From Flavipsychrobacter sp. (GTDB lineage Bacteria; Bacteroidota; Bacteroidia; Chitinophagales; Chitinophagaceae), in assembly GCA_031292525.1 (NCBI GenBank), contig JARLGY010000019.1, positions 124,001-188,000 on the forward strand: a DNA stretch of 64,000 bases. The letters run 5' to 3'. This document shows positions 3,893-21,200 of the stretch, piece by piece. Position numbers and translations under genes: made by a program. The notes beneath the pieces are model-generated. The model ran no database searches and was not told where the DNA came from. It saw only the letters and a list, made by a program, of their open reading frames with translations. How positions within the stretch are numbered: position 1 is the stretch's first letter; the number at the start of each line of letters is the position of its first letter.

Positions 3893-5266
3893 CTAAGGCT
3901 TCTCCCATTTGTTGACCACGACGGTAGCAATACTATTGCCTACCACGTTGGCTGCAGTTCTGCCCATGTCCATTATGGGATCGATACCCAGCAGCAGGGC
4001 AAGGCCTGCTTCTGGTATTTTGAAGGTAGCTAAGGTACCTGCAACAATAACTAAAGATGCACGTGGCACCCCCGCTATGCCCTTGCTGGTAAGCAAAAGC
4101 ACCATAAGCATACTGAACTGAGTGCCCATATCCAAATGCATACCATAGCACTGCGCCAGGAATAAAGATGCAAAGGCCATGTACATCATAGAACCAGCCA
4201 GGTTGAAAGAGTAGCCAAGCGGTAATACAAAACTTACTATACGCTCGTGGCAACCAAAACGCTCTAACTGTAAAATAAGAGACGGGAATGCAGCCTCACT
4301 GCTATTGGTACTAAATGCCAGCAATGTTGGCTGTTTGATGTGACTGAGCAGGCTGCGCACCCGGCGGCCTATTATAAAATAGCACGCCAGCAACAGAATG
4401 CCCAACAACAAGAATAGCCCCAAATAAAACTCACCAATGAATAATGAATACGTTTGCAGAATGCCTATGCCCTGCTTTGCAATAACCACCGTGATAGCAC
4501 CGAAAACAGCGACAGGTGCAAAACGCATGATGATCATCGTCATTTTGAGGATGACGTGGGAAATAGCATCTAATGCCCTGGTAACTGCAATACCCCGCTT
4601 ACCAATGGATGCGGTAGCGAACCCAAAGAACAAAGCGAAGACCACCACTTGCAATATCTCGTTGCGCGCCATGGCATCGAAAATGCTGGTGGGGAACATA
4701 TGATATAGAAAATCACGGGCATTCATGCTTACGGCAGGAAGCGGCGCACTGCTTGCAATATCGGGGACGGGTAAATGCATGGTCGAGCCAGGCTGAAAGA
4801 AATTGACCAACCCCATGCCCAGTAACAAACTGAGAAACGAACCGCATGAAAACCAAATTAATGTGCGCGCACCAATACGACCAATAGCTTTACTATCGCC
4901 AATTTTGGCCACGCCTACCGCCAATGTAGTAAATACTATAGGCGCAATGATCATTTTTATAAGACGCAGAAAAAGATCAGCTATCAGGGAAAATGGTTCG
5001 AGTTTTTTATCCCTGTCGGCACTGGCATTATCTTTCAGACAGTTGAGATCTGCTATATGCTTATGTAGTATTTTATAAGCAGCCCCGGTAGTATCTGCAA
5101 TGCCATGCATCTGTAGCCTTGTATCCTGCAACTGCCTTTCCAAACTAGCTATTACAAGGTTCTCATGTTGTACGTACCTGGTGTTCAGTATCACGCCCAC
5201 ACAAACACCTAATACTAAAGCAAGCACTATGTATAGCGTGAGGTGATTCGTTTTTTTATTCTCCAT
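3893..5266 (-). CDS. dicarboxylate/amino acid:cation symporter (DAACS/SDF family)
   Basis: A 457-residue symporter related to GltP/DctA. The C-terminal transport core carries the serine-rich reentrant loop STNSSEAAFPS, the LGYSFNLAGS segment, the reentrant loop around SKGIAGVPRAS, and the substrate/ion site DPIMDMGRTAANVVGN. It should import dicarboxylates or acidic amino acids with Na+ or H+. Between the first transmembrane helix and TM2 there is a charged segment of about 60 residues (ENLVIASLERQLQDTRLQM onward) with heptad-like character, longer than in DctA and probably periplasmic. It is monocistronic, with AT-rich spacers on both sides. Confidence 0.93.
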   Translation of the reverse strand: MENKKTNHLTLYIVLALVLGVCVGVILNTRYVQHENLVIASLERQLQDTRLQMHGIADTTGAAYKILHKHIADLNCLKDNASADRDKKLEPFSLIADLFLRLIKMIIAPIVFTTLAVGVAKIGDSKAIGRIGARTLIWFSCGSFLSLLLGMGLVNFFQPGSTMHLPVPDIASSAPLPAVSMNARDFLYHMFPTSIFDAMARNEILQVVVFALFFGFATASIGKRGIAVTRALDAISHVILKMTMIIMRFAPVAVFGAITVVIAKQGIGILQTYSLFIGEFYLGLFLLLGILLLACYFIIGRRVRSLLSHIKQPTLLAFSTNSSEAAFPSLILQLERFGCHERIVSFVLPLGYSFNLAGSMMYMAFASLFLAQCYGMHLDMGTQFSMLMVLLLTSKGIAGVPRASLVIVAGTLATFKIPEAGLALLLGIDPIMDMGRTAANVVGNSIATVVVNKWEKP

Positions 5267-5355
5267 GTTGATAAGGCAACAAATTTAAAACAATTTAACA
5301 GCACTACTGTATAACAAAACAACTGCACAAGCCACTAACGTTTATTAACATAATA

Positions 5356-6267
5356 CTAAAAGTCAAGCTGGTCTTGCACTGAACTATTGCCTTGCAGTCC
5401 TCCTGTATGCACACACAGAATACGAGCATTCTTTGAGAAAACGCCATTACTTAACATTTCTTTAAGACCATACATCATTTTAGCATTGTACACCATATCC
5501 AATGGTATTCCATGGCGGTGATAAAACTCATTCATAAATTGAAGCAATATATTATTGCACTTACCAAACCCACCAAAATGCCAATTGGTGTATATATGCC
5601 AATTTTCATTTGTTTTATTGTTGAGATGAGGCACAATGGCACTGTTAAAATCATTATTACCTTTAAAGGGAGCAAAACCAAGCACGGTGGTTGAGGGACA
5701 TAAGGCATTCCGCAAACCGATAAATGAAGTGCCTGTACCCACCGAAATGCAAACATGTGTGTAGCCGCCGGGTATCAATAAAGCCATATCGGCAGCACCC
5801 ATGCGGCCCTCGTTGTTAGCTCCGCCTTCCGGAATAATGAAACTATCGCCATACTTATCGGTGAGCTCCTGCTGGAATCCAGGTTCTGTTTTCCTGCTGT
5901 AGTCGGCAGTGGATATGTACACCAGTTGCATTCCCATATCACTACTGGTTTTTAAAGTTACAGAGGGAGCATTTTGCGCATACAAGCCACGCACAATACC
6001 TATACATGGCATATGATGTGCTTGTGCAGCGGCGGCAGTAGCTATTAAATGATTGGAGTAAGCACCACCGAATGTAAGCACCTGTGTAGCCCCAAAATCT
6101 TTAGCTGCCTGCAGGTTGCGTTTTAACTTGTACCATTTATTGCCTGATATAACAGGATGCACCAGATCGAGCCGCAACATATTTATTGCGGCTACCCTCC
6201 CCCCATACCAATCTTCATTTAATGGTTGTATTATGGCCTTATCCTCACAAATTATATCCATACTCAC
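5356..6267 (-). CDS. 1-aminocyclopropane-1-carboxylate deaminase/D-cysteine desulfhydrase family PLP enzyme
   Basis: A 303-residue fold-type II PLP enzyme. Residues 40-49 (ISGNKWYKLK) contain the lysine-bearing motif of the ACC deaminase/D-cysteine desulfhydrase family, and GGAYSNH (67-73) forms the cofactor/substrate pocket. A phosphate-binding glycine loop follows (CISVGTGTSFIG). Enzymes of this family deaminate ACC to 2-oxobutyrate or convert D-cysteine to pyruvate, H2S and ammonia. SNH rather than an ACC-deaminase-like motif makes D-cysteine desulfhydrase more likely. The start overlaps the 3' end of era by 23 bp (17 bp if the second ATG is used), implying translational coupling. Confidence 0.88.
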   Translation of the reverse strand: MSMDIICEDKAIIQPLNEDWYGGRVAAINMLRLDLVHPVISGNKWYKLKRNLQAAKDFGATQVLTFGGAYSNHLIATAAAAQAHHMPCIGIVRGLYAQNAPSVTLKTSSDMGMQLVYISTADYSRKTEPGFQQELTDKYGDSFIIPEGGANNEGRMGAADMALLIPGGYTHVCISVGTGTSFIGLRNALCPSTTVLGFAPFKGNNDFNSAIVPHLNNKTNENWHIYTNWHFGGFGKCNNILLQFMNEFYHRHGIPLDMVYNAKMMYGLKEMLSNGVFSKNARILCVHTGGLQGNSSVQDQLDF

Positions 6268-7141
6268 GCAGGTAGTTTTCGTTGTCGCGCCACTTATCCC
6301 GCACCTTCACAAAGAGCTCCAAGTGCACCTTTACGCCCAGGAAGTCTTCTATATCTTTCCGAGAGCTGATGCCGAGTTGTTTTATCATGCTCCCCCCCTT
6401 ACCTATTAATATTACCTTTTGGGTTTCGCGGGTTACAATGATCTCCACCTTTATAACGGTGAGTGTACTTTTCTCTTCAAAAGACTGCACTATGACCGCT
6501 GAATGATAAGGTATCTCTTCGTGATAGAGATTATATATCTGCCCACGAACCAATTCACTTACAAAGAACCGTTCTGTACGGTCGCTGATATTATCATCAG
6601 GATAATAAGGTGGCGCTACAGGAAGATGTTTCAATATAAACGTAAGTATCTTATCCATGTTCAGCTTTTTATGTGCTGAAACAGGTACGACATCCCACTT
6701 GGGGTATTTCTCTTTATATTGAGCTACGGTGGCAGCCACTTCTTCTTTATCCTTTACCAGATCGGTCTTGTTCAACAAAAGTATTGTAGGCACCTTCAGC
6801 TTCAACATAGCCGTTATGGCTTCAAATTCTTCAGCAGGTTGCGTGATATCATGCATTAGTATAGCCACATCGGCATCTTCAAGTGCACTCTTTACCTGGC
6901 GCATCATTTTCTCGTGCAGCTTGTACTTAGGCTCTATGATACCCGGGGTATCAGAAAATATGATCTGATAGTAAGGATCGTTAAGGATACCCAATATGCG
7001 ATGACGCGTGGTTTGCACCTTTGCAGATGTAATAACGAGCTTCTCGCCCAATAAGGCATTGAGCAATGTGGACTTACCTGCGTTGGGCGCGCCGAATATA
7101 TTTACGAAACCTGATTTAAAATTGTCTGGCATTGGATGCAA
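6245..7141 (-). CDS. era: GTPase Era
   Basis: A 298-residue protein of normal Era length. It has G1 GAPNAGKST (17-25), switch region TTRHR, G3 DTPG, G4 NKTD and a C-terminal KH domain with the GKGGSMIKQLG loop that binds the 3' end of 16S rRNA. Era assists 30S subunit maturation. Start codons at 7141 and 7132 are both possible. It is followed by the PLP enzyme gene in a 23-bp overlap. The initiator tRNA lies upstream on the opposite strand. Confidence 0.97.
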   Translation of the reverse strand: MHPMPDNFKSGFVNIFGAPNAGKSTLLNALLGEKLVITSAKVQTTRHRILGILNDPYYQIIFSDTPGIIEPKYKLHEKMMRQVKSALEDADVAILMHDITQPAEEFEAITAMLKLKVPTILLLNKTDLVKDKEEVAATVAQYKEKYPKWDVVPVSAHKKLNMDKILTFILKHLPVAPPYYPDDNISDRTERFFVSELVRGQIYNLYHEEIPYHSAVIVQSFEEKSTLTVIKVEIIVTRETQKVILIGKGGSMIKQLGISSRKDIEDFLGVKVHLELFVKVRDKWRDNENYLREYGYNL

Positions 7142-7195
7142 AATTACTATGCATTGGGCAATAAGCAGTTATTTACAGAAACTAAAAGAAATAGT

Positions 7196-7226
7196 TTGGT
7201 TAGTAATTATGAACCCTCTATATTTG
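7196..7226 (+). promoter_or_regulatory. Bacteroidota-type promoter of the initiator tRNA
   Basis: A -33 TTG (7196-7198) and a -7 box TATATTTG (7219-7226) are separated by 20 nt. They match the primary sigma consensus of Bacteroidota (TTG, about 19-21 nt, TAnnTTTG). The -7 box ends 12 nt before the first tRNA base. Confidence 0.8.
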
Positions 7227-7238
7227 CACTCCCAACAG

Positions 7239-7310
<72 letters not shown>

Positions 7311-7315
7311 CACAG

Positions 7316-7346
7316 TCCCTTCTGATTCATTTCAGGAGGGATTTTT
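7316..7346 (+). terminator. Rho-independent terminator of the tRNA
   Basis: TCCCTTCTGA (7316-7325) pairs with TCAGGAGGGA (7332-7341) to give a 10-bp stem with one T:G wobble and a 6-nt loop, followed by TTTTT. Confidence 0.92.
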
Positions 7347-7385
7347 GTTTAAGTAAATAGCTCACTATAAATACCCACTTATTTC

Positions 7386-8294
7386 ATGTTCTCTTTACAC
7401 AGAAAGGCAGCGCTGCTCCTTACCTCATTGGTTATTACCACTACTACTACCCAACTAAAAGCTCAGGGATTTTACATTAAAGAAGGTATCGGTTATGCCA
7501 TACCCATGCCGGGATCAACAAAAGACCAATTGGGCAATGTACTTAACGGCACTATAGTTGTGGGCTCCTCGGTAACCGGCTACCAGATAAAAAATGCATC
7601 CTTTTCGTCGGGTTTCCACGACATGATAGGCGGAGGCTATATGTTTACCAAGAATATTGGTGTTGAACTGAATGCCGATATTTTATTAGCCGGTACCCAG
7701 TACACCATTAATGAAATAGGCATCACCTCAAATAATGCCCCCGCCAATTTAGCTATAACACGACAAGCCAATGCATCCATCACATTTATGCCCGCTATGG
7801 TTATGCAAACATCCGGTAACAAGATAACAGGGTATATGCGCATGGGATTGCTATTGCCTGTGAGTACCAGTATTGAACGCCATAATATTTACTCTTACAA
7901 TACCGGGCAAGTAGATGACAACTATTGGAAAGACAAAAATTCGTTCTCTTTAGGGTTTGCAGGTGCAACTGGCATAAAATATAAGTGCGCCAGCAATTTT
8001 ACTTTATGGGCAGAGGTGAACCTGCAGTACTTATCCATATCGCGAAAAGAGTCGGATCTGGTGGGTTTTAGCGAAAATGGCCGTAGCTACAACACAGCCC
8101 TTTTAACGGGTGGGGTTAAAACAATATATTACAATAAGAATGCTACTACAAGTGCTAATGGGGAATATCAAGAGGCATTTGCACAACCATATAGTAATAT
8201 TGGATTTACCGTAGGTGTATCTGTAAATTTTGCGAAACACTATCACAAAGTGATCAAACGCAAAAAATCTGAACTTATGTCACGTGATTTTTAA
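7386..8294 (+). CDS. outer-membrane beta-barrel protein
   Basis: A 302-residue protein with a signal peptide (about residues 1-26, ending LKAQG). The mature part alternates polar and hydrophobic residues as in an OmpA/OmpW-like beta-barrel: FYIKEGIGYAIP, a GGYMFTKNIGVELNADI strand pair, and a final strand IGFTVGVSVNFAKHY. A short basic tail (KVIKRKKSELM) follows the last strand. No specific substrate or family could be named. It is flanked by the tRNA terminator upstream and a strong terminator downstream, so it is monocistronic. Confidence 0.75.
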   Translation: MFSLHRKAALLLTSLVITTTTTQLKAQGFYIKEGIGYAIPMPGSTKDQLGNVLNGTIVVGSSVTGYQIKNASFSSGFHDMIGGGYMFTKNIGVELNADILLAGTQYTINEIGITSNNAPANLAITRQANASITFMPAMVMQTSGNKITGYMRMGLLLPVSTSIERHNIYSYNTGQVDDNYWKDKNSFSLGFAGATGIKYKCASNFTLWAEVNLQYLSISRKESDLVGFSENGRSYNTALLTGGVKTIYYNKNATTSANGEYQEAFAQPYSNIGFTVGVSVNFAKHYHKVIKRKKSELMSRDF

Positions 8295-8361
8295 TCGTGT
8301 TGACTAGTTATTAAATAAAGAACTGACTAACACAATTCTATTCCTGTCATCGTTATTCCGT

Positions 8362-8392
8362 AAAAGCAATCATGAAAATGGTTGCTTTTTTT
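8362..8392 (+). terminator. Rho-independent terminator
   Basis: AAAAGCAATCAT (8362-8373) pairs with ATGGTTGCTTTT (8378-8389) around a GAAA tetraloop: 12 bp with one wobble, then further Ts. It closes the outer-membrane protein gene and insulates it from the Kdp regulator. Confidence 0.92.
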
Positions 8393-8446
8393 ATGTTTGT
8401 TTGGCAAGAGACCCCTTAGCGTTTTTCAGTTATTATCTGCTGGCTA

Positions 8447-8470
8447 CGTCAAAATTATTTTATTTTGACG
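8447..8470. promoter_or_regulatory. inverted repeat upstream of the Kdp-locus regulator (candidate operator)
   Basis: CGTCAAAAT (8447-8455) and ATTTTGACG (8462-8470) form a perfect 9-bp dyad with a 6-nt centre. The half-site TCAAAAT/ATTTTGA matches the core of the palindromes at 9907-9921 and 17987-18014, so it may be an autoregulatory site for the sigma-54 activator encoded at 8534. Confidence 0.5.
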
Positions 8471-8478
8471 ATAGTACT

Positions 8479-8516
8479 AAAAGTACAATAGATTGAAACC
8501 ACCTATTGTACTTTTG
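8479..8516. promoter_or_regulatory. 13-bp inverted repeat overlapping the -7 box of the regulator gene
   Basis: AAAAGTACAATAG (8479-8491) and CTATTGTACTTTT (8503-8515) are perfect reverse complements separated by 11 nt. The right arm contains TACTTTTG (8509-8516), a good TAnnTTTG -7 box, 17 nt before the ATG of the regulator. I saw no matching TTG at the right distance. The dyad could be a repressor operator or a 5' mRNA hairpin. The 10-mer AAAGTACAAT recurs at 9941-9950 downstream of the same gene. Confidence 0.6.
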
Positions 8517-8533
8517 CATTCCAATCCAACGCA

Positions 8534-9877
8534 ATGGCCGATAGCACCAACATACTTATCATAGATGATGAAGATAAACTAAGAGGATTACTGAAGCGCA
8601 TTATATCGCTGGAAGGGTATGCTGTGCAGGAAGCCAACTCTTTGGCTGCAGGGTTAAAGATATTGGCAAAGGGCGGAATCTGCATTGTATTGTGCGATGT
8701 AAAGCTACCTGACGGCAGCGGGGTAGAGTTTGTAAGCACAGTAAAAAAACAATACCCCGCTGTAGAGATAATACTACTCACAGCGTACGGCAATATTCCT
8801 GATGGTGTGCAGGCAATGAAGAACGGTGCCTTTGACTATATAGTAAAGGGGGATGATAATGACAGAATCATACCACTCATAAGCCGCGCTGCTGAGAAAC
8901 TGGCGCTGGTAAGGAAAATTAATAAGCTAGAAGAACAAGTAGCGCTGAAAGGCGATTTTGATAAAATAATAGGAACAAGCACCGCGCTGGCTGCCGCGGT
9001 GAACCTGGCCAAAAAAGTAGCCACATCGCAGACCCCAGTTTTACTTACAGGCCCAACTGGAACCGGTAAGGAGGTATTTGCACAGGCCATACATAGTTAC
9101 AGCCCGCAAAACAACCAGGCCTTTGTGGCACTCAATTGCAGTGCTTTGAGTAAGGACATAATGGAAAGTGAACTTTTTGGCCATGTTGCCGGAGCGTTTA
9201 CCGGCGCGGCAAAAGACAAAAAAGGACTTGTAGAAGAAGCAAAAGGCGGTACGCTGTTCCTGGATGAAATTGGTGAAATGCCACTGGAACTGCAGCCCAA
9301 GCTATTGCGATTTCTTGAAAATGGCACCTACTACAGGGTTGGCGATACCATACAACGCAGTGCACAGGTGAGGCTGATAGCTGCAACCAACCGGGACCTT
9401 CAGAAAGAAATACAAGAAGGAATATTCAGAAGTGATCTTTATTACCGTATAGCTGTGTTTTCTATACAGCTGCCTATGCTGCGGGAACGAAAGACAGATA
9501 TCCCATCGTTAACCTCCCACTTCCTGGAAGTTTTTAATGCAAGGACGAATAAACAAATAAAGGGCATTGAAAAGGATACACTTACCCTTTTGATGAACTA
9601 TGCATGGCCAGGAAATATAAGGGAGCTAAAAAATGTGATAGAACGGGCTGTAATACTTGAAGATACCACTATGCTCACCACCAGCAGCCTACCCTATGAG
9701 CTACAATTTACAAACACGATAACGGAAAGCAGCTCAACCTTTCAACTGAGCGATATGGAGAAAATACATATCAAGATGGTGCTGGGACATACTAAGGGTA
9801 ATAAAACGGAAGCTGCCAGGTTACTGAATATAGGCTTGGCCACCCTTTACCGAAAAATAGAAGAGTACCAATTATAA
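8534..9877 (+). CDS. NtrC-family sigma-54-dependent response regulator of the Kdp locus
   Basis: A 447-residue protein with three domains. The receiver (about 6-118) has the acidic pair D11/D12, phospho-acceptor D55 (VLCDVKLPD) and K105. The AAA+ sigma-54 interaction domain (about 143-375) has Walker A GPTGTGKE (173-180), the sigma-54-contact loop GAFTGA (220-225), Walker [12 protein letters not shown] and the [10 protein letters not shown] sensor segment. A C-terminal Fis-type helix-turn-helix (about 410-445) ends the protein. GAFTGA is intact, so it should open sigma-54 promoters. It lies upstream of kdpFABC, and no OmpR-type KdpE occurs in the window; I infer it takes the KdpE role, with the kinase at 19222 as the likely partner. 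Dyads lie both upstream and downstream of the gene. Confidence 0.93.
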
Positions 9878-9906
9878 CCACCAACCACCTTGTTTTGATA
9901 TAAGAT

Positions 9907-9921
9907 TTCTCATTTTGAGAA
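9907..9921. promoter_or_regulatory. palindrome TTCTCA-TTT-TGAGAA, candidate upstream activator site
   Basis: A perfect 6-bp dyad around TTT, containing the 9-mer TCATTTTGA. It is centred about 110 bp upstream of the sigma-54-like promoter at 10010-10025, a usual distance for an NtrC-type activator site. The same 9-mer recurs at 17987-18014, just upstream of the kdpD-like gene. Confidence 0.5.
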
Positions 9922-10009
9922 GGATAAATTATTCCCACCCAAAGTACAATTTATAGGCATCCCGTTGCTGCATTGGGTTTACACGGTTTTTCTGCTTTCT
10001 TTAACACTT

Positions 10010-10025
10010 TGGTACATGGTTGGCA
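10010..10025 (+). promoter_or_regulatory. sigma-54 (-24/-12) promoter candidate of the kdp run
   Basis: TGGTACATGGTTGGCA fits the consensus TGGCAC-N5-TTGCA at 9 of 11 defined positions, with the invariant GG (10011-10012) and GC (10023-10024) at the correct spacing. Transcription would start near 10036, about 14 nt before the ATG at 10050. An activator with an intact GAFTGA loop is encoded just upstream. Confidence 0.6.
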
Positions 10026-10049
10026 TATACTGGGCAAATACCCTGTAAA

Positions 10050-10403
10050 ATGATCAACCAATTTGAGGTGCCCATGTACCTGAAGGAAGCCTTGCCGGAG
10101 ATAGCACAAGACCTGAAAATAGAAGCAAATAATAATGCCTATAAGCAAATGGATGCGCTTACTGCGTTTACCCGAAAAAACATCCAGGAACACGACTATA
10201 AAGCTGTAAAACGTTGTTTTAAAATAGCAGACAAACTGTATAACAAGGGAAATGCTGTTGTAAAGAATGCAGTGCAGAATGTATTTGTCTATTCGTTTAC
10301 CAACATCTTCCAAACATGCAGGCCTGAAAAACCAACTGTGCTGGCATTGTTGCCTATGTCTTTGTACACTATTTACATAGCACAAATACACAAAGGTTGC
10401 TAA
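10050..10403 (+). CDS. DUF7674-like small cytosolic protein
   Basis: A 117-residue protein beginning MINQFEVPMYLKEALPE. The in-frame TTG at 10020 is rejected because the ATG gives the conserved-looking N-terminus. It is mostly alpha-helical, with no signal peptide or membrane segment. The core KRCFKIADKLYNKGN and the end LALLPMSLYTIYIAQI resemble the family I know as DUF7674. The function is unknown. It is the first gene after the sigma-54-like promoter, so it heads the potassium run; a regulatory or accessory role is only an inference from position. Confidence 0.7.
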   Translation: MINQFEVPMYLKEALPEIAQDLKIEANNNAYKQMDALTAFTRKNIQEHDYKAVKRCFKIADKLYNKGNAVVKNAVQNVFVYSFTNIFQTCRPEKPTVLALLPMSLYTIYIAQIHKGC

Positions 10404-10532
10404 TGGCACTCATGCACACGAGTACATGCGAAAATAACGCTGCTTTCTTAGCCATGATAAGCATCATATAAACAAAGCATATAAGTCACTTAGGTTTATA
10501 GAATAATAAATTCCTTTTGTAAAAAGCAAAAA

Positions 10533-10616
10533 ATGATAACAACTGCATTAATCGTCGGAACACTAATAGGTTTTTGGCTCCTATTTAAATCAATAGACTG
10601 GTTTGAAAAAATATAG
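10533..10616 (+). CDS. 27-residue single-pass membrane peptide upstream of kdpF
   Basis: A short frame, ATG to TAG, encoding a hydrophobic helix (ALIVGTLIGFWLLF) followed by the polar end KSIDWFEKI. It has the size and architecture of KdpF (25 residues, encoded 613 bp further on) but a different sequence, so the locus carries two mini-membrane proteins. It may be a second small subunit stabilising the Kdp complex. The coding assignment rests on composition and position only. The next gene starts 18 bp after its stop. Confidence 0.6.
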   Translation: MITTALIVGTLIGFWLLFKSIDWFEKI

Positions 10617-10634
10617 ACGGACAAACGTAAACAC

Positions 10635-11204
10635 ATGAACAAGAAACTGCTGATCATAATTTCCATATTGATTGTTTTGGGAAAAGACAGTTATGGGAAA
10701 AAACCTGTCGGCATATTCATGACTGCCACCGACTTTCAACATAACAAAATTGCTTACATGCAGGATGCCAGTCAGGGTGAAACTACAATACGGATACATC
10801 ATTTTTTCTGGAACATGCCAACAATAACAATTGTAACAAAAGGAAGCAGGCACAACTTAAGAAAAAGTGACCTGTACGGCTTTATAGATAGTAACAAAGA
10901 TGTGTACCGCTTTTATAATAACATGGAGTACCGACTTGCTGAAGCTGGGAATATCTACATCTACATTCATCAAAATAATATTGCACAAAGCAAAGGTTTT
11001 ATAGTAGTGAATACTTACTACTTCAGCAGTTCAGCAGATGGTAAAATTGAGCGATTAACAATGGACAACTTAAAAACTGTTTATGCAGGTAATGAAAAAT
11101 TTATAGACCTGCTTGACCAATACAATGGGAATGTAAGCAGTTACGATAAACAGAACAAAACGTACAAAATCAATTACATTTTTTCAAAAACAAGCAGACA
11201 ATAA
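10635..11204 (+). CDS. secreted protein of unknown function in the kdp run
   Basis: A 189-residue protein with an N-terminal signal peptide (hydrophobic stretch LLIIISILIVLG, about residues 4-15, then DSYGKK). The mature part is rich in beta-strand-type segments (TTIRIHHFFW, NIYIYIHQNN) and ends in a basic tail. No cysteine pair or known motif is visible. It lies between the 27-residue peptide and kdpF on the same strand with short gaps, so it is probably cotranscribed with kdp. I do not recognise the family. Confidence 0.65.
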   Translation: MNKKLLIIISILIVLGKDSYGKKPVGIFMTATDFQHNKIAYMQDASQGETTIRIHHFFWNMPTITIVTKGSRHNLRKSDLYGFIDSNKDVYRFYNNMEYRLAEAGNIYIYIHQNNIAQSKGFIVVNTYYFSSSADGKIERLTMDNLKTVYAGNEKFIDLLDQYNGNVSSYDKQNKTYKINYIFSKTSRQ

Positions 11205-11228
11205 GACTGCCTGCATTAAAAAAATTTT

Positions 11229-11306
11229 ATGATAGCACTGTTCATTATAGCGGTATTGACTTTTGTCTATATGGTCTATGTATTAGTTAAACCTGAAAAA
11301 TTCTAA
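11229..11306 (+). CDS. kdpF: KdpF, small subunit of the K+-transporting ATPase
   Basis: A 25-residue protein consisting of one transmembrane helix (ALFIIAVLTFVYMVYVLV) ending in KPEKF, the classical KdpF pattern. KdpF is a lipid-like stabiliser bound to KdpA in the KdpFABC complex. It lies 11 bp upstream of kdpA, as in other bacteria. Confidence 0.88.
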   Translation: MIALFIIAVLTFVYMVYVLVKPEKF

Positions 11307-11317
11307 AACACATTTAC

Positions 11318-13057
11318 ATGGAGCCTCAAATTTTAGGAGTCGTTGTAATGTTTATTGCAACGTTATTGTTAGCAGTACCCCTGGGCAAGTATATTGCTAA
11401 GGTATATGCCGGGCAGCATATTTGGACAGACCGTATTTTTAGTCCGATAGAAAAACTATTCTTTAGAATATCCCGAATAGACCCAACAAAAGAAATGAAC
11501 TGGAAGCAACACTTAACGGTGCTGCTCACCATCAACCTTATCTGGTTTTTTTGGGCCATGTTTTGCCTGCTGAACCAAGGATGGTTGCCTATGAACCCAG
11601 ATCATAACCAGAACATGACCTCTGACCTGGCATGGAACACAGCCATATCTTTTTTGGTGAACTGCAATCTACAGGACTATAGCGGTGAAACAGGGGTTTC
11701 TTATTTCACTCAGATATATGGCTTGATGTTCCTGCAATTTGTGTCTGCCGGTACAGGGATGGCTGCTGCTGCAGTGGTATTTAATGCACTTAGAGACAGG
11801 ACTACAGAGCAATTAGGTAATTTTTATAATTACTTTTTAAAGAGCTGTACACGCATTTTGCTACCCGTATGTATACTTGTGGCGGCAATCCACTTGTTTG
11901 AAGGTACGCCAATGACCTTTAAGGGAATGGATACAGTAACCACAATGCAAGGAGATACCATGCATGTGAGCCGCGGGCCCGTGGCAGCATTTGTAGCTAT
12001 AAAACATGTGGGCACTAATGGCGGCGGTTTTTACGGTGCAAACTCGGCCCACCCACTTGAAAACCCTAACTACCTGTCGAACATTGTACAGATGGTAGCA
12101 CAGATACTGATACCGTTTGCCATGGTATTTGCGTTTGGTTTTTATACCAATAAAAAAAGATTGGCGTGGGTATTTTGGAGCGTGATGACCATAGGATTTC
12201 TGATACTTGTAGTACCAGCCATCTACACTGAAGTACAGGGTAATCCTAACATAGCCCATATGGGCATTTCGCAACCGGGTGGCAATATGGAAGGTAAGGA
12301 AGTTCGCTTTGGCGCTACTGCGTCGGCCTTCTGGAGTATAGCAACTACAGTTATATCAACCGGTTCTGTAAATGGCATGCATGACAGTTTCATGCCGGTT
12401 TCAGGAATGAATATGCTGTTGGGGATGATGATCAATTCGTTTTATGGCGGTGTAGGAGTAGGGTTCCTCAACTTCTTTATTTATGTGATACTGGCGGTAT
12501 TCATAGGAGGGCTAATGGTGGGACGTACCCCTGAGTTTTTGGGTAAGAAAATAGAAGCGAAGGAAATGAAGATCGCCATGATCATTGCCTTGTTCCATCC
12601 ATTCTTAATTCTTGTAGGAACGGCGGTTGCGAGCTACTTGACGGCACATGATACCAATATGGGTTGGTGGTTTGCAGATGCCGCAGGGAAACATAATGCC
12701 AGCGGTTGGTTGAACAACCCCTCTTACCATGGATTTAGCGAAATGCTGTACCAATACACTTCTTGCTCGGCAAATAATGGGAGTGGATTTGAAGGGTTGG
12801 CAGATAACAACCCATTCTGGAATATAAGTGCAGGTATTGTGCTGCTCTTCTCCAGGTTCTTGCCCATAATAGGCCCTGTTGCTATAGCCGGTATATTGGC
12901 ACAGAAGAAGTTTATACCTGTAAGCAGCGGAACACTTAAGACGGATACGGGAACATTTGGGATGCTGGTATTTGCCGTAAAGGTGATCATAGCAGCACTG
13001 GCCTTCTTCCCTGCCCTGGCCCTTGGACCAATTGCAGAATGGCTAAAAATGCATTAA
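11318..13057 (+). CDS. kdpA: KdpA, K+-binding/translocating subunit
   Basis: A 579-residue polytopic membrane protein, about 20 residues longer than E. coli KdpA. It belongs to the superfamily of K+ transporters with four pore loops. Loop 1 reads NTAISFLVNCNLQDYSGE and loop 2 GTNGGGFYGANSAHPLENP; the other loops carry GSVNGMHDS and CSANNGSGFEGL. In the first filter E. coli has TNTN where this protein has VNCN. KdpA is the high-affinity K+ selectivity channel of the KdpFABC pump in the inner membrane. It is followed 33 bp later by kdpB. Confidence 0.97.
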   Translation: MEPQILGVVVMFIATLLLAVPLGKYIAKVYAGQHIWTDRIFSPIEKLFFRISRIDPTKEMNWKQHLTVLLTINLIWFFWAMFCLLNQGWLPMNPDHNQNMTSDLAWNTAISFLVNCNLQDYSGETGVSYFTQIYGLMFLQFVSAGTGMAAAAVVFNALRDRTTEQLGNFYNYFLKSCTRILLPVCILVAAIHLFEGTPMTFKGMDTVTTMQGDTMHVSRGPVAAFVAIKHVGTNGGGFYGANSAHPLENPNYLSNIVQMVAQILIPFAMVFAFGFYTNKKRLAWVFWSVMTIGFLILVVPAIYTEVQGNPNIAHMGISQPGGNMEGKEVRFGATASAFWSIATTVISTGSVNGMHDSFMPVSGMNMLLGMMINSFYGGVGVGFLNFFIYVILAVFIGGLMVGRTPEFLGKKIEAKEMKIAMIIALFHPFLILVGTAVASYLTAHDTNMGWWFADAAGKHNASGWLNNPSYHGFSEMLYQYTSCSANNGSGFEGLADNNPFWNISAGIVLLFSRFLPIIGPVAIAGILAQKKFIPVSSGTLKTDTGTFGMLVFAVKVIIAALAFFPALALGPIAEWLKMH

Positions 13058-13090
13058 AAAAACACACTTCAGCGCTAAAAAAATTAGATA

Positions 13091-15166
13091 ATGAAAGCCG
13101 ATAACAAAGAAAGCTTGTTTAAAAAGGACCTGGTAGCCGAAGCTATCAAGCAGTCTTTTATCAAGCTGAATCCAAAATACCAGTACCGCAACCCGGTAAT
13201 GTTTACAGTTGAAATAGGAACAATGGTAATGATGTTTGTATGTGCCTGGATATTATCAGGAGAACACAGCCAAGGGTCGTTTGCATACAACTTCATAATA
13301 TTTTTTATCCTGCTGGTTACATTACTGTTTGCCAATTTTGCAGAAGCTCTTGCCGAGGCAAGAGGTAAGGCACAAGCTGCATCATTAAGAAAAACACGTG
13401 AAGAGACCCCAGCTAAAAAACTAATAGTACCCGGAGAAATATTTACCAGCGAAACACAGGTTGTTGCATCTTCACAATTAGTAAAAGGCGACTTGTTCAT
13501 CTGTGAAACAGGGGATATCGTGCCTACTGACGGAGAGATAGTTGAAGGAATAGCTACAATAGATGAATCTGCTATTACCGGGGAATCTGCACCTGTAATT
13601 CGGGAAGCTGGTGGTGATAAATCGTCTGTGACGGGTGGAACGAAAGTATTGTCTGATAAAATAATAGTAAAGGTGACTACAGAACCGGGGGAAAGTTTCC
13701 TGGATAAGATGATAGCCTTGGTAGAAGGGGCATCGAGACAAAAGACGCCCAACGAAATTGCGCTTACTATATTGCTTGCTGGCTTTACACTGGTATTCAT
13801 CATTGTATGTATTACCCTGTACCCATTTGCGCTTTATGCTAAAACGCCTATACCAATCTCTGCATATATCTCATTGTTCGTGTGTCTTATACCCACCACT
13901 ATTGGTGGTTTATTATCTGCTATTGGCATATCTGGAATGGACAGGGCATTACGTGCGAATGTAATTGCGAAATCGGGCAAGGCAGTTGAAACAGCCGGAG
14001 ACCTTGATGTATTGCTGCTGGACAAAACAGGCACCATAACTATAGGTAACCGCAAAGCCACTAATTTTTATAATGCTCCCGGGGTTGCGCTGAATGAATT
14101 CATACATGCAGCGGTACTCAGCTCGGTGTCAGATACCACACCAGAAGGCAAGTCTATTGTGGAACTTGGCAATAAAATGCTGAGCGAAAATGCAGTATTT
14201 GGAGCAAAGCTGGACAAATACCAATCTGCAGTATTACAGCAGATAGATTTTACAGCCGAAACAAGATCGAGTGGTGTGAACCTGGCAAATGGAGTAATGA
14301 TAAGGAAAGGTGCCAGTGACGCTATTAAAGCAATGGTGCAAAAAGCAGGAAACTTATTTGACCTTGAAGTAACCGAAGCAGTAAACAAAATAGCTGGCAA
14401 TGGCGGTACTCCACTAGTGGTAATTGAAAATGATAGAGTGCTGGGCGTAGTGGAACTACAGGATATAATAAAGACCGGCATACAGGAAAGGTTTGAGCGC
14501 CTGAGAAAAATGGGAGTGAAAACAGTAATGGTGACCGGGGACAACCCGCTAACTGCAAAGTATATAGCAGGCAAGGCCGGAGTGGATGACTATATAGCTG
14601 AGGCCAAGCCAGAAGATAAGATGGCCTATATACGTAAAGAACAGGCGGCAGGCAAGCTTGTAGCTATGATGGGGGATGGCACAAATGATGCCCCGGCGTT
14701 GGCACAAGCCGATGTAGGTGTAGCCATGAACAGCGGTACTGCCGCTGCCAAAGAAGCCGGCAACATGGTGGACCTGGACAATGACCCGACTAAGCTGATA
14801 GAGATAGTAGAGATAGGCAAGCAATTGCTAATGACGAGGGGAACACTAACCACATTCTCTATAGCCAATGATGTAGCCAAGTATTTTGCCATAGTGCCTG
14901 CGCTGTTCATAGCATCTATACCAGCGCTGCAGCGTATAAACGTAATGAACCTGCATAGCCCGGCAAGTGCCATACTATCGGCCATCATATTTAATGCGAT
15001 CATCATTCCGTTGCTGATACCACTAGCTTTAAAAGGCGTAGCGTACAAGCCAATAGGTGCAAGCGCGTTGTTAAGAAGAAACCTGCTTGTGTATGGATTG
15101 GGTGGTATATTGGTACCATTCATAGGGATCAAGCTGATAGACATGGTGGTTATGTTATTTATGTAA
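13091..15166 (+). CDS. kdpB: KdpB, P-type ATPase subunit
   Basis: A 691-residue P-type ATPase of normal KdpB length. The actuator loop is ITGES (162-166); its serine corresponds to the inhibitory phosphorylation site described for E. coli KdpB (Ser162). The phosphorylation motif is DKTGT with D311, and further motifs are KGAS in the nucleotide-binding domain, TGDN and [10 protein letters not shown] in the P-domain. Together with KdpA it couples ATP hydrolysis to K+ uptake. It sits between kdpA and kdpC with gaps of about 33 bp. Confidence 0.98.
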
Positions 15167-15198
15167 AACTTTTTGACACCGAAAAAACAATAAAGAAA

Positions 15199-15768
15199 AT
15201 GAAAAAGGAAATCATTCCATCGCTACTGTTGACTATAGTTTGCATCCTTTTTTTTTCCGGGGTATATCCGGCACTGATATGGGGGATAGCCCAACTTGCG
15301 CCCAATAAGGGGGAAGGTTTTGTGATAAAAGGCGACAATGGCAAGTACTACTATGAAAACATAGGCCAAAAGTTTACTGACGATAAATACTTCTGGTCGA
15401 GACCATCGGCAGTAAATTACAATGCGTCCGGATCTGGCGGTAGTAATAAAGGACCTGACAACCCGGATTACCTAGCACAGGTACAAGCTACGATAGACAC
15501 TTTTATGAAACACAATCCGGACATTAACAAAGCGGATATACCATCTGATATGGTAACTGCAAGCGGCAGTGGCCTGGACCCACATATTAGCGTGCAGGGA
15601 GCAGAAGTACAAGTAGCAAGAATTGCCAAAGTACGCAGGATAGATAAAAGTGTAGTTGAAGCCCTGGTAAAAAAGCATATTGACGGCCCTATGTATGGAC
15701 TGGGACCAGAGCGAGTAAACGTGTTGAAATTAAATATTGAACTAGATCAAACAACCAGGAGACAATGA
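15199..15768 (+). CDS. kdpC: KdpC subunit
   Basis: A 189-residue protein with one N-terminal membrane helix (LLLTIVCILFFSGVYPALI) and a periplasmic domain. The motifs YFWSRPSAVNYNASGSGGSN and SGLDPHISVQGAEVQVARIA are diagnostic for KdpC, an assembly and affinity subunit of KdpFABC. Its stop overlaps the next start (ATGA at 15765-15768), so the YnfA-like gene is translationally coupled to the operon. Confidence 0.97.
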   Translation: MKKEIIPSLLLTIVCILFFSGVYPALIWGIAQLAPNKGEGFVIKGDNGKYYYENIGQKFTDDKYFWSRPSAVNYNASGSGGSNKGPDNPDYLAQVQATIDTFMKHNPDINKADIPSDMVTASGSGLDPHISVQGAEVQVARIAKVRRIDKSVVEALVKKHIDGPMYGLGPERVNVLKLNIELDQTTRRQ

Positions 15769-16103
15769 TGAGAGAAGCTATGTACCGATCACTTTTTTTC
15801 TTCCTGCTTGCAGGCATATGCGAGATTGGTGGCGGGTATATGATATGGAAGGCTGTGAAACATGAACAACCTATATGGGTAGGCCTGCTAGGTTGCATTG
15901 TGATGGCAGCGTATGGTGTTGTGGCAACATTTCAACCAGCTGGATTTGGGCGCACATACGCTACATATGGTGGCATATTTGTAATCATGTCTCTGTTATG
16001 GGGATGGGTAGCAGAAAAAGCCAAACCTGATCTATATGACATTATAGGCGGCCTTGTTGTACTAGCAGGCACCGCAATCATATTTTATGCACCGAGAAAA
16101 TAG
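15765..16103 (+). CDS. YnfA-family membrane protein (UPF0060)
   Basis: A 112-residue protein with four membrane helices. LLAGICEIGGGYMIW near the N-terminus and YATYGGIFVIMSLLWGW in the third helix are the UPF0060/YnfA signatures, a branch of the small multidrug resistance fold. YnfA proteins have been linked to efflux of cationic compounds; no role in K+ transport is established. The 4-bp overlap with kdpC shows it is part of the kdp transcription unit here. An alternative start at 15768 or 15780 would remove a few N-terminal residues. Confidence 0.92.
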   Translation: MMREAMYRSLFFFLLAGICEIGGGYMIWKAVKHEQPIWVGLLGCIVMAAYGVVATFQPAGFGRTYATYGGIFVIMSLLWGWVAEKAKPDLYDIIGGLVVLAGTAIIFYAPRK

Positions 16104-16140
16104 GAATCAATTTAAATTTATTAGATCAAAAACGACAAAA

Positions 16141-17559
16141 ATGAAAAAAACAATTACTGCAGTATTAGTATTAACAACAGCTTTTTTCAGTCCAAAAGCT
16201 AACGCTCAGGCTACAGTTGAAGGGACGGTGGAACTTTCGACCCAGGAAAAAGCGCCAGCAAAAGAAGTAAAAGAAAAAATACCCTGGGATGGGTATGACC
16301 AAACCTGGGTAAATGGGAATGACAGAAGGGATTCTTCTGTGTTTCATATACCATTTTTCACACCAAGCATATTGATAGACTGCAACGCTACACACTCTTT
16401 TAACAGTCCTATAGATCATACAGTGGTTGGCTCAACTGCACTTGCCCGTAATGACGAAATGGTGATCTCGGCAATTAATATTGGCGGCGATTTCAACTAT
16501 GGTAATGCACGTGGACGCATCATGACACAATTTGGAGCTCGCTCGCAGGTTGTGCCACGTAATGACCTAAGTCCATATCGTGGTCAATATGACCTTGCTG
16601 ACGCTTACCGTTATCTTGACGAAGCATATGCGGGATACCACTTTAATGTTTGGTATGGTATTAATGTTGACGCGGGGTTATTCATGTCTTATATAGGCCT
16701 TAACTCTTACTACCAGCAGGAGAACTGGGAATACCAGGCATCCTTTACATCGGACAATACACCATGGTTCTTTAATGGTATCCGCATACAGATATTCCCA
16801 ACCAAGAACCTGAAAATAGAACCATGGATCATCAATGGATGGCAGAGTTATGGCTCGTTCAATTCGCTGCCAGGGTTAGGTACTAATATAACGTACATAC
16901 CTAAAGAGAATATTAAAATGCTTACCAATGATTACTATGGTACCGATGCTGCTGGTCTTTTAGGAAGGCATAGGTTTCACTCTGATAACAGCTTTTTGTG
17001 GAGGTATTACAATCATCCAAAATCAAAAGGCATCTCGAGAATGGCATTATCCATAACAGGCGATATTGGTTATGAAAAAGGAGATGGTGTAAATGGTTTT
17101 ACCAGCGATGCAGTGAAAGGGCCAGCCCAGTACTTTGAAAGCTGGATGGTGTACGATAAAATATGGTTCCACAAAAACAAGATGGGCGTGTACTTTGGCG
17201 GTGGCTGGATGACCAACCCTGGCCGTTACCTGGTATTGGCACCAACAGGGGATGCAAGTCCTTTCCCTAACCCATACAATCCAACTCAAACAGTAGGTAC
17301 CCATCCGTTCACTGAAAACCCTGGAGATAAGTTTACAGGATGGGATTGTTCTATTGGCTTTAGCTGGACGCCTAACCAAAGTATTGAATTTAAAGCAGAG
17401 TATGTGCACAGGGAAGCAGATGTACCCTACTTCGCTGGACCAGGTGGTGTAACATCACCAAGTGGTTATACTTATACTCCGATACCTACAAGTGGCTGGG
17501 CACCTGACCTTGTAAAATCTGAAAACAGGGTAATATTCGCAGCATTGTTCAGGCTTTAA
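16141..17559 (+). CDS. outer-membrane porin (bbp2/OmpL-like) of the kdp run
   Basis: A 472-residue protein from ATG 16141, which starts a clean signal peptide (MKKTITAVLVLTTAFFSP...NAQ). A longer in-frame start at 16087 overlaps ynfA and is rejected. The mature part has aromatic, glycine-rich beta-strands (GVYFGGGWMTNPGRYLVLAP, SIGFSWTPNQSIEFKAEYVH) ending in a terminal strand VIFAALFRL. This is typical of the Bacteroidota putative beta-barrel porin family (bbp2, PF07642). Placed 37 bp after ynfA, it probably provides an outer-membrane route for K+ to the Kdp pump; that role is inferred from context. Confidence 0.82.
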   Translation: MKKTITAVLVLTTAFFSPKANAQATVEGTVELSTQEKAPAKEVKEKIPWDGYDQTWVNGNDRRDSSVFHIPFFTPSILIDCNATHSFNSPIDHTVVGSTALARNDEMVISAINIGGDFNYGNARGRIMTQFGARSQVVPRNDLSPYRGQYDLADAYRYLDEAYAGYHFNVWYGINVDAGLFMSYIGLNSYYQQENWEYQASFTSDNTPWFFNGIRIQIFPTKNLKIEPWIINGWQSYGSFNSLPGLGTNITYIPKENIKMLTNDYYGTDAAGLLGRHRFHSDNSFLWRYYNHPKSKGISRMALSITGDIGYEKGDGVNGFTSDAVKGPAQYFESWMVYDKIWFHKNKMGVYFGGGWMTNPGRYLVLAPTGDASPFPNPYNPTQTVGTHPFTENPGDKFTGWDCSIGFSWTPNQSIEFKAEYVHREADVPYFAGPGGVTSPSGYTYTPIPTSGWAPDLVKSENRVIFAALFRL

Positions 17560-17567
17560 TTAATTGT

Positions 17568-17613
17568 GGTGTGTAGTAAGTAGTTTATTTATAAAGCACA
17601 TTTACTACACACC
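17568..17613 (+). terminator. long-loop hairpin after the porin gene
   Basis: GGTGTGTAGTAA (17568-17579) and TTACTACACACC (17602-17613) are a perfect 12-bp inverted repeat with a 22-nt loop, followed by an AT-rich stretch without a strong T-run. It may terminate or attenuate the kdp transcript, or protect its 3' end. Confidence 0.5.
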
Positions 17614-17624
17614 TATTTTATACT

Positions 17625-17837
17625 ATGGAAAAATTCATAAAATATGCCTATAGGATGACTATTTTTTTCGTCCTACTGTCTTTATCGGCAGATATATATT
17701 GGCTTATTCATCCGGAAAACAAACAAGCATTATTTACATACATAAACATTATTACTCCTTTTGGGGTGCTATTTTATTTTTTCATGGCATTTAGAAAACA
17801 CGTTCAAATTAAACGAAAGAAGAAAATGTATCAATAA
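17625..17837 (+). CDS. 70-residue two-helix membrane protein, unknown
   Basis: Two hydrophobic segments (MTIFFVLLSLSADIYWLI and YINIITPFGVLFYFFMAF) and a strongly basic tail (RKHVQIKRKKKMYQ) that should face the cytoplasm. No family is recognised. It lies between the porin hairpin and a strong terminator, at the end of the kdp run. It could be an accessory small membrane protein. Confidence 0.6.
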   Translation: MEKFIKYAYRMTIFFVLLSLSADIYWLIHPENKQALFTYINIITPFGVLFYFFMAFRKHVQIKRKKKMYQ

Positions 17838-17889
17838 TATGTTAGGAGTACAAGCTGTAAAGACAGAATAGCTGTGGAGTGTAATAAAG

Positions 17890-17920
17890 GTGGCTTCGTC
17901 AAAATGACGAGCCACTTTTT
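17890..17920 (+). terminator. Rho-independent terminator of the kdp run
   Basis: GTGGCTTCGTCA pairs with TGACGAGCCAC around AAA, with one bulged base, followed by TTTTT. The loop region reads TCAAAATGA, the same 9-mer as in the nearby dyads. Confidence 0.85.
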
Positions 17921-17986
17921 GTGCTTTTAGTCATTTTAAACGAAGAAGTAATAAATAAAAAAAATACACGAACAAGAATGTATTTC

Positions 17987-18014
17987 TCATTTTGAAAACT
18001 TACTATCAAAATGA
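17987..18014. promoter_or_regulatory. TCATTTTGA dyad upstream of the kdpD-like gene
   Basis: TCATTTTGA (17987-17995) and TCAAAATGA (18006-18014) are perfect 9-bp arms with a 10-nt centre (about one helical turn), about 70 bp before the kdpD-like ATG. The arms contain the same core as the palindrome at 9907-9921. No GG-N10-GC sigma-54 element lies between this dyad and the gene. Confidence 0.5.
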
Positions 18015-18085
18015 ATGTTTTTCGACTGCGGAAATATTATTTGGGCCTATTATGGAATACTGCCAACTTTTAAAATTATAAGCCA

Positions 18086-19213
18086 ATGGAAATAACACAG
18101 GACGAACATGCCGAACATTTCCTGGAGCTGATCAAGAGGTCAAAAAAAGGTAAGTTCAAAGTATATATAGGTATGAGTGCCGGTGTGGGCAAGACATACC
18201 GGATGCTGCAGGAAGCGCATACGCTGCTGCAAAATGGAGTGGATGTAAAGATAGGCTACGTAGAAACGCATAACAGGGCTGAAACGATTGCGTTGCTGCC
18301 CGGACTACCCATGATACCTAGGAAAAAAGCGTTTTACCTAGGTAAGGAAGTAGAGGAAATGGATGTACAAGCTATTATCAACCTATCACCAGAATTGGTG
18401 ATAGTTGATGAACTTGCACATAGCAATATACCGGGTGGAAAAAATGAGAAGAGGTGGCAGGATGTTATAGATATATTGGACGCCGGGATAAGCGTGATAA
18501 GCGCGGTGAACATACAGCATATAGAAAGCCTTAATGCGCTTGTGAAGGAAATAACGGGTATAGATGTAGCTGAGCGGGTACCTGATAAAGTGCTGAAACT
18601 GGCAGACGAAGTGGTAAACATAGATATGACCGCTGAAGAACTGATATCGAGGCTAAAGGAAGGTAAAATATATACTATTGATAAAATTGAAACGGCTTTA
18701 AAGAACTTCTTTAAGCCAGAGAGTATATTGCAGTTGCGGGAACTGGCCCTAAAAGAAGTAGCGGGCCAAATTGAGCGCAAAGTAGAAGCTGAAATACCCC
18801 GTAACATATCTTTCAGACACGAAAAGATATTGGCCTGCATCAGCAGCAATGATGCAACTGCAAAAACAGTGATAAGAAAAGCCGCCAGGTTGGCCAGCTA
18901 CTATAATGCCCAGTGGTGGGTATTATTTGTAGAAACCCCTAAAGAAACCCCAGATAAAATAGCACTGGACAAGCAACGACATTTAATTAATAATTTTAAG
19001 CTGGCCACTGAATTGGGAGCCGAGGTATTACGAGAAAACAGTGATAGTGTGGCAGCTGCTATTGTGAAAGTTGTAGATGAAAAACACATCACCACTGTTT
19101 GTATCTGTAAGCCCAAGTTGAGCCTGTTGCAAATTATCTTTGCGACCAACGTATTTAGCCAGATATTAAAAAAACTGAAGAGCAATAATACAGACCTGAT
19201 CATTATGTCTTAA
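18086..19213 (+). CDS. N-terminal-only KdpD (sensor domain without kinase)
   Basis: A 375-residue cytosolic protein. Residues about 20-230 form the KdpD sensor domain with Walker A GMSAGVGKT (29-37) and Walker B ELVIVDELAHSN (103-114); about 245-375 is a universal-stress-protein-like domain. The four membrane helices, GAF and histidine kinase parts of full KdpD (about 900 residues) are missing. The protein ends naturally, and a complete histidine kinase gene follows 8 bp later. This is a split arrangement rather than a broken gene. N-terminal KdpD proteins without a kinase are also known in cyanobacteria. It probably senses K+ or ATP status and modulates the neighbouring kinase. Confidence 0.92.
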   Translation: MEITQDEHAEHFLELIKRSKKGKFKVYIGMSAGVGKTYRMLQEAHTLLQNGVDVKIGYVETHNRAETIALLPGLPMIPRKKAFYLGKEVEEMDVQAIINLSPELVIVDELAHSNIPGGKNEKRWQDVIDILDAGISVISAVNIQHIESLNALVKEITGIDVAERVPDKVLKLADEVVNIDMTAEELISRLKEGKIYTIDKIETALKNFFKPESILQLRELALKEVAGQIERKVEAEIPRNISFRHEKILACISSNDATAKTVIRKAARLASYYNAQWWVLFVETPKETPDKIALDKQRHLINNFKLATELGAEVLRENSDSVAAAIVKVVDEKHITTVCICKPKLSLLQIIFATNVFSQILKKLKSNNTDLIIMS

Positions 19214-19221
19214 TTTAAACC

Positions 19222-20919: not shown

Positions 20920-21200
20920 ACCGGGCTGACGGTTTTCTATCTAATCATGTAAAAAGGTCACTTTTATACCTACTATTTTGCCCCTATTCATTTGTTCTGT
21001 TGAACCTGATTATATCAGAAGATTTTTCAGCTATATAGTCTCTTACGTCAAAAAACAAGGCTATGTTAACTAAATGTTGTCGTTTTGTTGCGTTAACATT
21101 ACCGCATCATTAAGTGTGTTTTAAGCCTTTCGATTTGGGGTAAAAATTCAGAATCCCCTCAGAATTTACCGACAAACTTTGCGCAAAATCTAATAAATAC

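Follow-up and report, generated by a model that had tools for sequence, protein, structure and literature searches.

A putative sigma-54 promoter and NtrC-family activator at the kdp potassium-pump locus in Bacteroidota

Described kdp systems and the locus

Desulfovibrio vulgaris offers a precedent for placing kdp under sigma-54, according to two reports on the response regulator DVU3334. The first describes DVU3334 as regulating its own operon, in which kdpFABC is joined by a two-part kinase (PMC3333781); the second lists it within the sigma-54 regulome among the GAFTGA response regulators, with potassium uptake as its function and DVU3339.1-DVU3337 as its target (PMC4641369). The split KdpD of D. 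vulgaris is reported to consist of a K+ sensor and UspA protein together with a separate kinase. In the KdpD/KdpE system of E. coli, the sensor adjoins kdpFABC and KdpE is of the OmpR type, and no sigma-54 promoter is known for kdp in this organism. An indirect link through PTS-Ntr has been proposed (PMC3162934). A 2024 survey places Bacteroidota among the phyla with mainly short KdpD, and describes species with only the N-terminal part of KdpD as appearing to use it only post-translationally (PMC11018627). The sigma-54 regulon of Flavobacterium psychrophilum provides -24/-12 promoters in Bacteroidota, one of them validated by mutagenesis, and the word kdp is absent from the main text of that paper (PMC9723704); a sigma-54 regulon survey mentions neither kdp nor potassium in its main text (PMC12316311). 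A literature search, with most subscription journals outside its reach, found no publication on sigma-54 control of kdp in Bacteroidota. The spread of putatively sigma-54-controlled kdp in Bacteroidota, a probable phased enhancer and a possibly relaxed -12 base would be new here.

The DNA analyzed (the window, 64,000 nt) lies on contig 61 of a 4.44 Mb genome and contains a kdp locus, with all of the genes named below on the + strand. An NtrC-family response regulator, the proposed activator (8534-9877), carries a receiver domain (PF00072), a sigma-54 AAA+ domain with the GAFTGA motif (PF00158, 229 bits) and a Fis-type HTH (PF02954). It is separated by a 172 bp spacer from a gene for a DUF7674 protein (10050-10403; PF24722, 91 bits), the first gene 3' of the putative promoter, which is followed by kdpF (10533-10616; 27 aa, MITTALIVGTLIGFWLLFKSIDWFEKI, recognized by pattern), a gene for a 189-aa protein without a Pfam match (10635-11204), kdpA (11318-13057; PF03814, 743 bits), kdpB (13091-15166; PF00122/PF00702) and kdpC (15199-15768; PF02669). 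The kdp unit possibly ends with a small membrane protein (15765-16103) and a BBP2 porin (16087-17559), and a hairpin followed by a T-run at 17886-17919 on the + strand (-19.4 kcal/mol, z -5.0) is a possible end of the unit. Beyond this are the genes for an N-terminal KdpD protein (18086-19213; PF02702, 299 bits) and a HAMP-PAS-HisKA-HATPase kinase (19222-20919; PF00672, PF00989, PF00512, PF02518). E. coli KdpD gives two separate alignments, one of its residues 2-345 with the KdpD protein and one of its residues 664-880 with the kinase; KdpD is split over these two genes, and is not a single chain. A tblastn search of positions 4001-21500 with E. coli KdpE gave no full-length match to this OmpR-type regulator, and matches were found in only 3 of 99 loci, two at 44-47% identity (L037, L038) and one at 30% in a distant place (L111). 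An RNA element, such as a c-di-AMP riboswitch, was considered and rejected, since nothing in 8300-11400 reaches the gathering score of an Rfam family.

The window has in common with DVU3334-3339 a GAFTGA response regulator at kdp and a split KdpD, and it also carries a sigma-54-type element at kdp. DVU3334 is reported to lie inside the kdp operon that it regulates, whereas the regulator of the window is a separate upstream gene, and the spacer that follows it holds the putative enhancer and promoter. Desulfovibrio belongs to a different phylum, and the likeness is one of features, not of traced descent. As in E. coli, the sensor is encoded beside the pump genes, and both the N-terminal and kinase parts of E. 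coli KdpD have homologs in the window, but the OmpR-type KdpE of E. coli has no similar match at this locus. As in the short KdpD/Usp systems, KdpD is reduced to its N-terminal part; unlike in those systems, a kinase gene follows KdpD and a sigma-54 regulator precedes kdp. The locus offers a complete, testable answer to how short-KdpD bacteria switch on their pump genes, and a testable transcription switch for bacteria whose kdp loci rarely hold KdpE.

Two further proteins of the kdp run recur in relatives. DUF7674-like genes occur in 22 of 80 fetched kdp loci, several of them directly 3' of a sigma-54 element, and the DUF7674 protein is a candidate potassium-response protein; a full-text literature search for the term DUF7674, with most subscription journals outside its reach, found no publication. 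Relatives of the 189-aa protein are present in the kdp loci L035, L036, L037, L039, L040 and L055.

The -24/-12 element within the family

The sigma-54 consensus is TGGCAC-N5-TTGCW, and the element TGGTACATGGTTGGCA (10010-10025, + strand) agrees with it at 9 of 11 positions. The GG pair at 10011-10012 and the GC pair at 10023-10024 have the canonical GG-N10-GC spacing, the -24 part reads TGGYAY and the -12 base is the canonical C. The stop codon of the activator ORF is 132 bp 5' of the element, and 24 nt separate it from the DUF7674 ATG at 10050. Transcription from a sigma-54 promoter is expected to begin about 12 nt past the -12 base, and a start is predicted near 10036. An earlier reading, made from the sequence alone, had drawn attention to the GG and GC pairs at correct spacing, the 9/11 match, the placement just before a DUF7674-like ATG and the gene for a GAFTGA activator directly 5', and the coordinates and domain matches bear out each of these.

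Scored with a general sigma-54 matrix, TGGTACATGGTTGGCA ranks 4th among 127,968 window positions, and with a held-out matrix of 40 sites, all from other genomes, it is 2nd among about 128,000, only the position at 42457 being higher. A scan of the window for the consensus with two mismatches gave 297 matches against 225 expected, and by this count alone TGGTACATGGTTGGCA is not told from noise. Taking matrix rank and conservation together, we regard TGGTACATGGTTGGCA as a genuine sigma-54 element, beyond what chance would produce.

Conservation was examined in the family, where KdpA was found in 100 of 195 sampled genomes. Loci were taken from 80 of the other 99 KdpA genomes, some of them ending early at contig ends; with the window added and one locus (L033) left out of the counts, as it belongs to the same genus and its KdpA is 98% identical, 80 loci were counted. 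Of the 80, 57 carry the activator upstream of kdpA in the same orientation, and 63 carry it somewhere in the fetched stretch. A KdpF-like ORF is present in 77 of the 80 loci and the N-terminal KdpD protein in 73, with the kinase directly after it in 71. An unsupervised motif search of the 57 spacers behind the activator returned YGGYAY-N4-TTTG[CG][CA] with a log-likelihood of 225.5; the same search in 20 dinucleotide shuffles averaged 91.1 and never exceeded 98.7. Sites of at least 7 nats occur in 41 of these spacers, with GG kept in 39 and the G at -13 in all 41; no position in the remaining 16 reaches 7 nats. In 38 of the 41 cases, an ORF of 20 aa or longer begins with ATG within 70 nt of the site and, judged by translation, 17 of the ORFs behind sites are kdpF and 6 are DUF7674.

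The 23 family loci with no activator upstream were outside the matrix training. Using a cut-off of 10 bits, which is our own choice and carries no formal error rate, a site was found within 700 bp upstream of kdpF in 19 of the 23 (6/6 of those with the activator elsewhere and 13/17 of those with none in the stretch). The controls gave 1 hit among 80 kdpB stretches and 5 among 80 shuffled upstream regions. The cut-off is also passed by 45 of the other 57 loci, 40 of which were training loci. Some of the 10-bit hits, lying far from kdpF, may be due to chance. Three loci (L036, L045 and L112) lack both the activator and a good site, and two others (L034, L035) have a site with the activator absent from the fetched stretch.

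Of the 41 family sites, 18 have C at -12 (as does the window), 18 have G, 3 have A and 2 have T, which departs from the textbook consensus and weighs against the promoter reading. This matched set of sites suggests that sigma-54 promoters of the family may tolerate G at -12. Regions upstream of groES were searched in 30 loci; the first motif search returned coding or start-codon signal and, when limited to -135..-50, part of the 30 loci gave TGGCAY-like elements with a variable -12 base and the others a different motif, TTGCCAT. Because the groES elements are mixed, they lend the relaxed -12 base only weak support outside kdp, and tolerance of G in the sigma-54 promoters of the family is a possibility rather than an established feature. 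A search of 60 family genomes for TGGCACN{1,9}TTGCA showed, by eye and among the matches listed, no preferred spacing.

The upstream palindrome and proposed activation

A palindrome, TTCTCA-TTT-TGAGAA (9907-9921), with the core TCA-NNN-TGA, is the proposed upstream activating sequence (UAS) of the putative promoter. The sequence-only reading was right that a palindrome is present, but the distance it gave, about 110 bp, was not, as the centre is about 97 bp (96.5) from the GG. A first, weaker operator, TTGTTTTGA (9890-9898), matches 4 of 6 core positions and has its centre 20 bp before that of the second, and a tandem-operator pattern matches the genome at 9893-9918. The consensus among relatives is ACC(C/T)TTTCA-NNN-TGAAAGGGT, with the same TCA-NNN-TGA core, and a palindromic motif search of 41 spacers gave a log-likelihood of 243, compared with 29.7 or less in 12 mononucleotide shuffles. 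Most relatives have two operators in tandem, the palindrome being the downstream one; measured from its centre, the best match to a further core lies 19-23 bp upstream in 43 of 46 relatives, and an upstream core copy with at least 5 of 6 positions is found in 39 of 46 (both are raw counts, with no shuffles). Around the activator stop, counting the 40 bp on its 5' side and the 130 bp on its 3' side, TCAWWWTGA is present in 38 of 57 stretches; among 470-bp stretches taken upstream of the activator it is present in 5 of 57, and its overall frequency is 0.066 per 470 bp.

Palindrome and site occur together, 50-150 bp apart, in 53 of 98 loci but in only 2 of 98 control stretches, the control being mainly coding and the test stretch largely noncoding. 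This count required a stem of 7 or more and a site scoring 5 bits or more, the 6-bp stem of the window being admitted by exception. At least 4 of 6 positions of the TCA-NNN-TGA core are kept in 48 of the 53 loci. The distances between palindrome and GG cluster near 86, 96 and 108 bp, one helical turn apart. Counting one distance for each of 39 genera, 17 are at 83-88 bp, 16 at 103-112 bp, 2 at 95-98 bp (the genus of the window among them) and 4 elsewhere. Four periods from 10 to 11.5 bp were tried in the phase test, and 10.5 and 11 were then used by genus; the Rayleigh p value is about 1e-8 at the 11-bp period across the 39 genera, with relatedness handled at genus level only. An activator that is bound to DNA and touches the polymerase by looping needs spacings that change in steps of a helical turn, and the comparison indicates that the palindrome would be an upstream activating sequence in helical phase. 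Lack of conservation in orthologous spacers had been named in advance as evidence against the element; both element and palindrome are kept there, at phased distances. With RpoN also present, the earlier view of the spacer as a sigma-54 module appears right in substance.

The palindrome, as TYTCAWWWTGARA, is also found at six further places in the same genome outside kdp (L161-L166), giving 8 in all, and a reversed control pattern had 0 matches in this genome. A second tandem pair, TCATTTTGA / TCAAAATGA (17987-18014), precedes the sensor genes. It is followed by no good sigma-54 element, and only 5 of 72 loci, counting the window, have TCAWWWTGA upstream of KdpD, so we do not propose a second target here. 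The loop of the hairpin at 17886-17919 also reads TCAAAATGA.

Activator copies in the kdp loci of other genera of the family are 53-65% identical to that of the window, and the best-scoring paralog in its own genome is 41% identical, with shorter AAA+ matches of up to 47%. RpoN was found in 193 of the 195 sampled family genomes. The genome of the window encodes two RpoN proteins (PF04552), both containing ARRTVAKYR, the RpoN box, and residues 3-492 of one of them (C60) align to solved sigma-54. The second RpoN (471 aa; L002, contig 10) adjoins another NtrC-type activator (contig 10, 25709-26914), and the two are possibly a private sigma-54/activator pair. Just 5' of the activator gene of the kdp locus, at 8479-8515, is a perfect 13-bp inverted repeat (AAAAGTACAATAG / CTATTGTACTTTT), overlapped at 8509 by TACTTTTG, which resembles a Bacteroidota sigma-A -7 element; together these are possibly the operator and promoter of the activator gene.

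We propose that the GAFTGA activator acts on the TGGTACATGGTTGGCA promoter. RpoN polymerase would bind 10010-10025 as a closed complex, and the NtrC-family regulator, probably phosphorylated by the HAMP-PAS kinase (19222-20919), would bind the tandem TCA-NNN-TGA operators at 9890-9921. The intervening ~97 bp of DNA would then loop, the GAFTGA AAA+ domain would open the complex, and transcription would begin near 10036; how far the transcript extends is likewise a prediction, and K+ is the presumed inducing signal. The regulator would fill the role that KdpE has in E. coli. We consider it highly probable that the DUF7674-kdpF-(189 aa)-kdpABC run has TGGTACATGGTTGGCA as its sigma-54 promoter, activated by the upstream NtrC-family regulator. 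Element and activator very probably form a switch for the emergency potassium pump, one that recurs before the pump genes in many relatives.

A rival reading keeps the sigma-54 promoter, activated by a regulator bound elsewhere, and makes the palindrome nothing but the intrinsic terminator of an upstream gene, be it the activator's or another. The best inverted repeat begins within 60 bp of the activator stop codon in 37 of 41 loci, as a terminator would, and since a T-run lies 3' of the palindrome in 44 of 53 loci and the hairpins of two relatives fold well, it probably does end the activator's message as well. It is nevertheless unlikely to be a terminator and nothing more, because the core is conserved in 48 of the 53 loci, its spacing from the promoter is in helical phase, and palindrome and promoter stay together where the activator gene is absent from the stretch or far (L043, L092, L103 and L109 among others, where the palindrome might be the terminator of another gene). 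The second core copy about 20 bp upstream also speaks against this, as does the window itself, in which the palindrome persists with no T-run behind it, is not among the terminator-like sites found and is unremarkable as an RNA hairpin (-6.9 kcal/mol, z -0.94). In most relatives, the phased enhancer looks fused to a terminator, and we infer that the palindrome may have both uses there. That one and the same piece of DNA both ends the activator's message and receives the activator is a tentative proposal, one that we lean slightly against; were dual use true, binding of the activator could in turn influence termination, or read-through into kdp.

Two other readings place the start of kdp transcription under a different promoter. 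A second -24/-12-like element, TTGGCATATACTGGGCA (10020-10036), overlaps TGGTACATGGTTGGCA, scores 12.1 with the general matrix, and is kept in the same-genus locus L033 and, more weakly, in L039. It scores under TGGTACATGGTTGGCA (12.1 vs 14.4), its -12 base at 10035 would place the start only about 3 nt before the ATG, and the unsupervised search across relatives finds the register of TGGTACATGGTTGGCA instead, so it is very improbable that TTGGCATATACTGGGCA is the true promoter. Even less credence is given to a housekeeping sigma-A promoter reading the kdp run beside a coincidental sigma-54-like element. Loci with a weak or absent site do exist, as such a promoter would allow, but the Bacteroidota -7 element, TAnnTTTG, occurs in only 2 of 57 spacers, compared with a shuffled mean of 6.5, and is absent from the spacer of the window, and conservation of the -24/-12 motif is far above that in shuffles. 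Sigma-54 control from TGGTACATGGTTGGCA is the reading that we prefer.

Occurrence in other families and named genomes

Within the phylum, KdpA was found in 52 of 198 sampled genomes, 48 of them outside the family, and the 18 most similar of these 48 loci were used to look for the element in other families. A 10-bit site is present in 14 of the 18, compared with 1 of 18 controls, and two of the 14 (L154, L160) fall within the activator ORF. Two other-family loci (L155 and L158) have the activator and no good site.

A set of named genomes was made up of the best 80 loci among the matches listed, and in these the activator is 48-62% identical to that of the window in 36 loci and at most 42% identical in 44. 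The 36 closer loci of this best 80 among the matches listed are nearly all titled as Bacteroidota groups, and 35 of them were used, one being too short. Within the same best 80 of the matches listed, a site of at least 10 bits is found in 13 of the 16 closer loci with a kdp gene or KdpF-like ORF within 1 kb, in 4 of the 19 without kdp nearby, and in 8 of the 44 behind activators of 42% identity or less; site and palindrome are found together in 13 of 35 closer loci vs 1 of 44 distant ones. For example, among the matches listed, Flavobacterium psychrophilum DSM 3660 (L182) has activator, palindrome, site and kdpF, and Chryseobacterium gregarium (L214) also has both site and palindrome. Chitinophaga sp. 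YR627 (L181), among these same listed matches, has an activator of 61% identity and neither flanking kdp nor a site; L187 and L207 have the activator and flanking kdp with no good site, and the site of L186 reaches only 8.9 bits.

The two family loci with the stronger KdpE matches (L037 and L038) come from one near genus, and in both an OmpR-type KdpE-like gene lies by kdp and the NtrC-family activator is absent. L037 has no sigma-54 site, and the sole site in L038 (12.6 bits) is 629 bp before kdpF. This appears to be a natural swap of the control system, and it fits the idea of sigma-54/NtrC control at the other loci.
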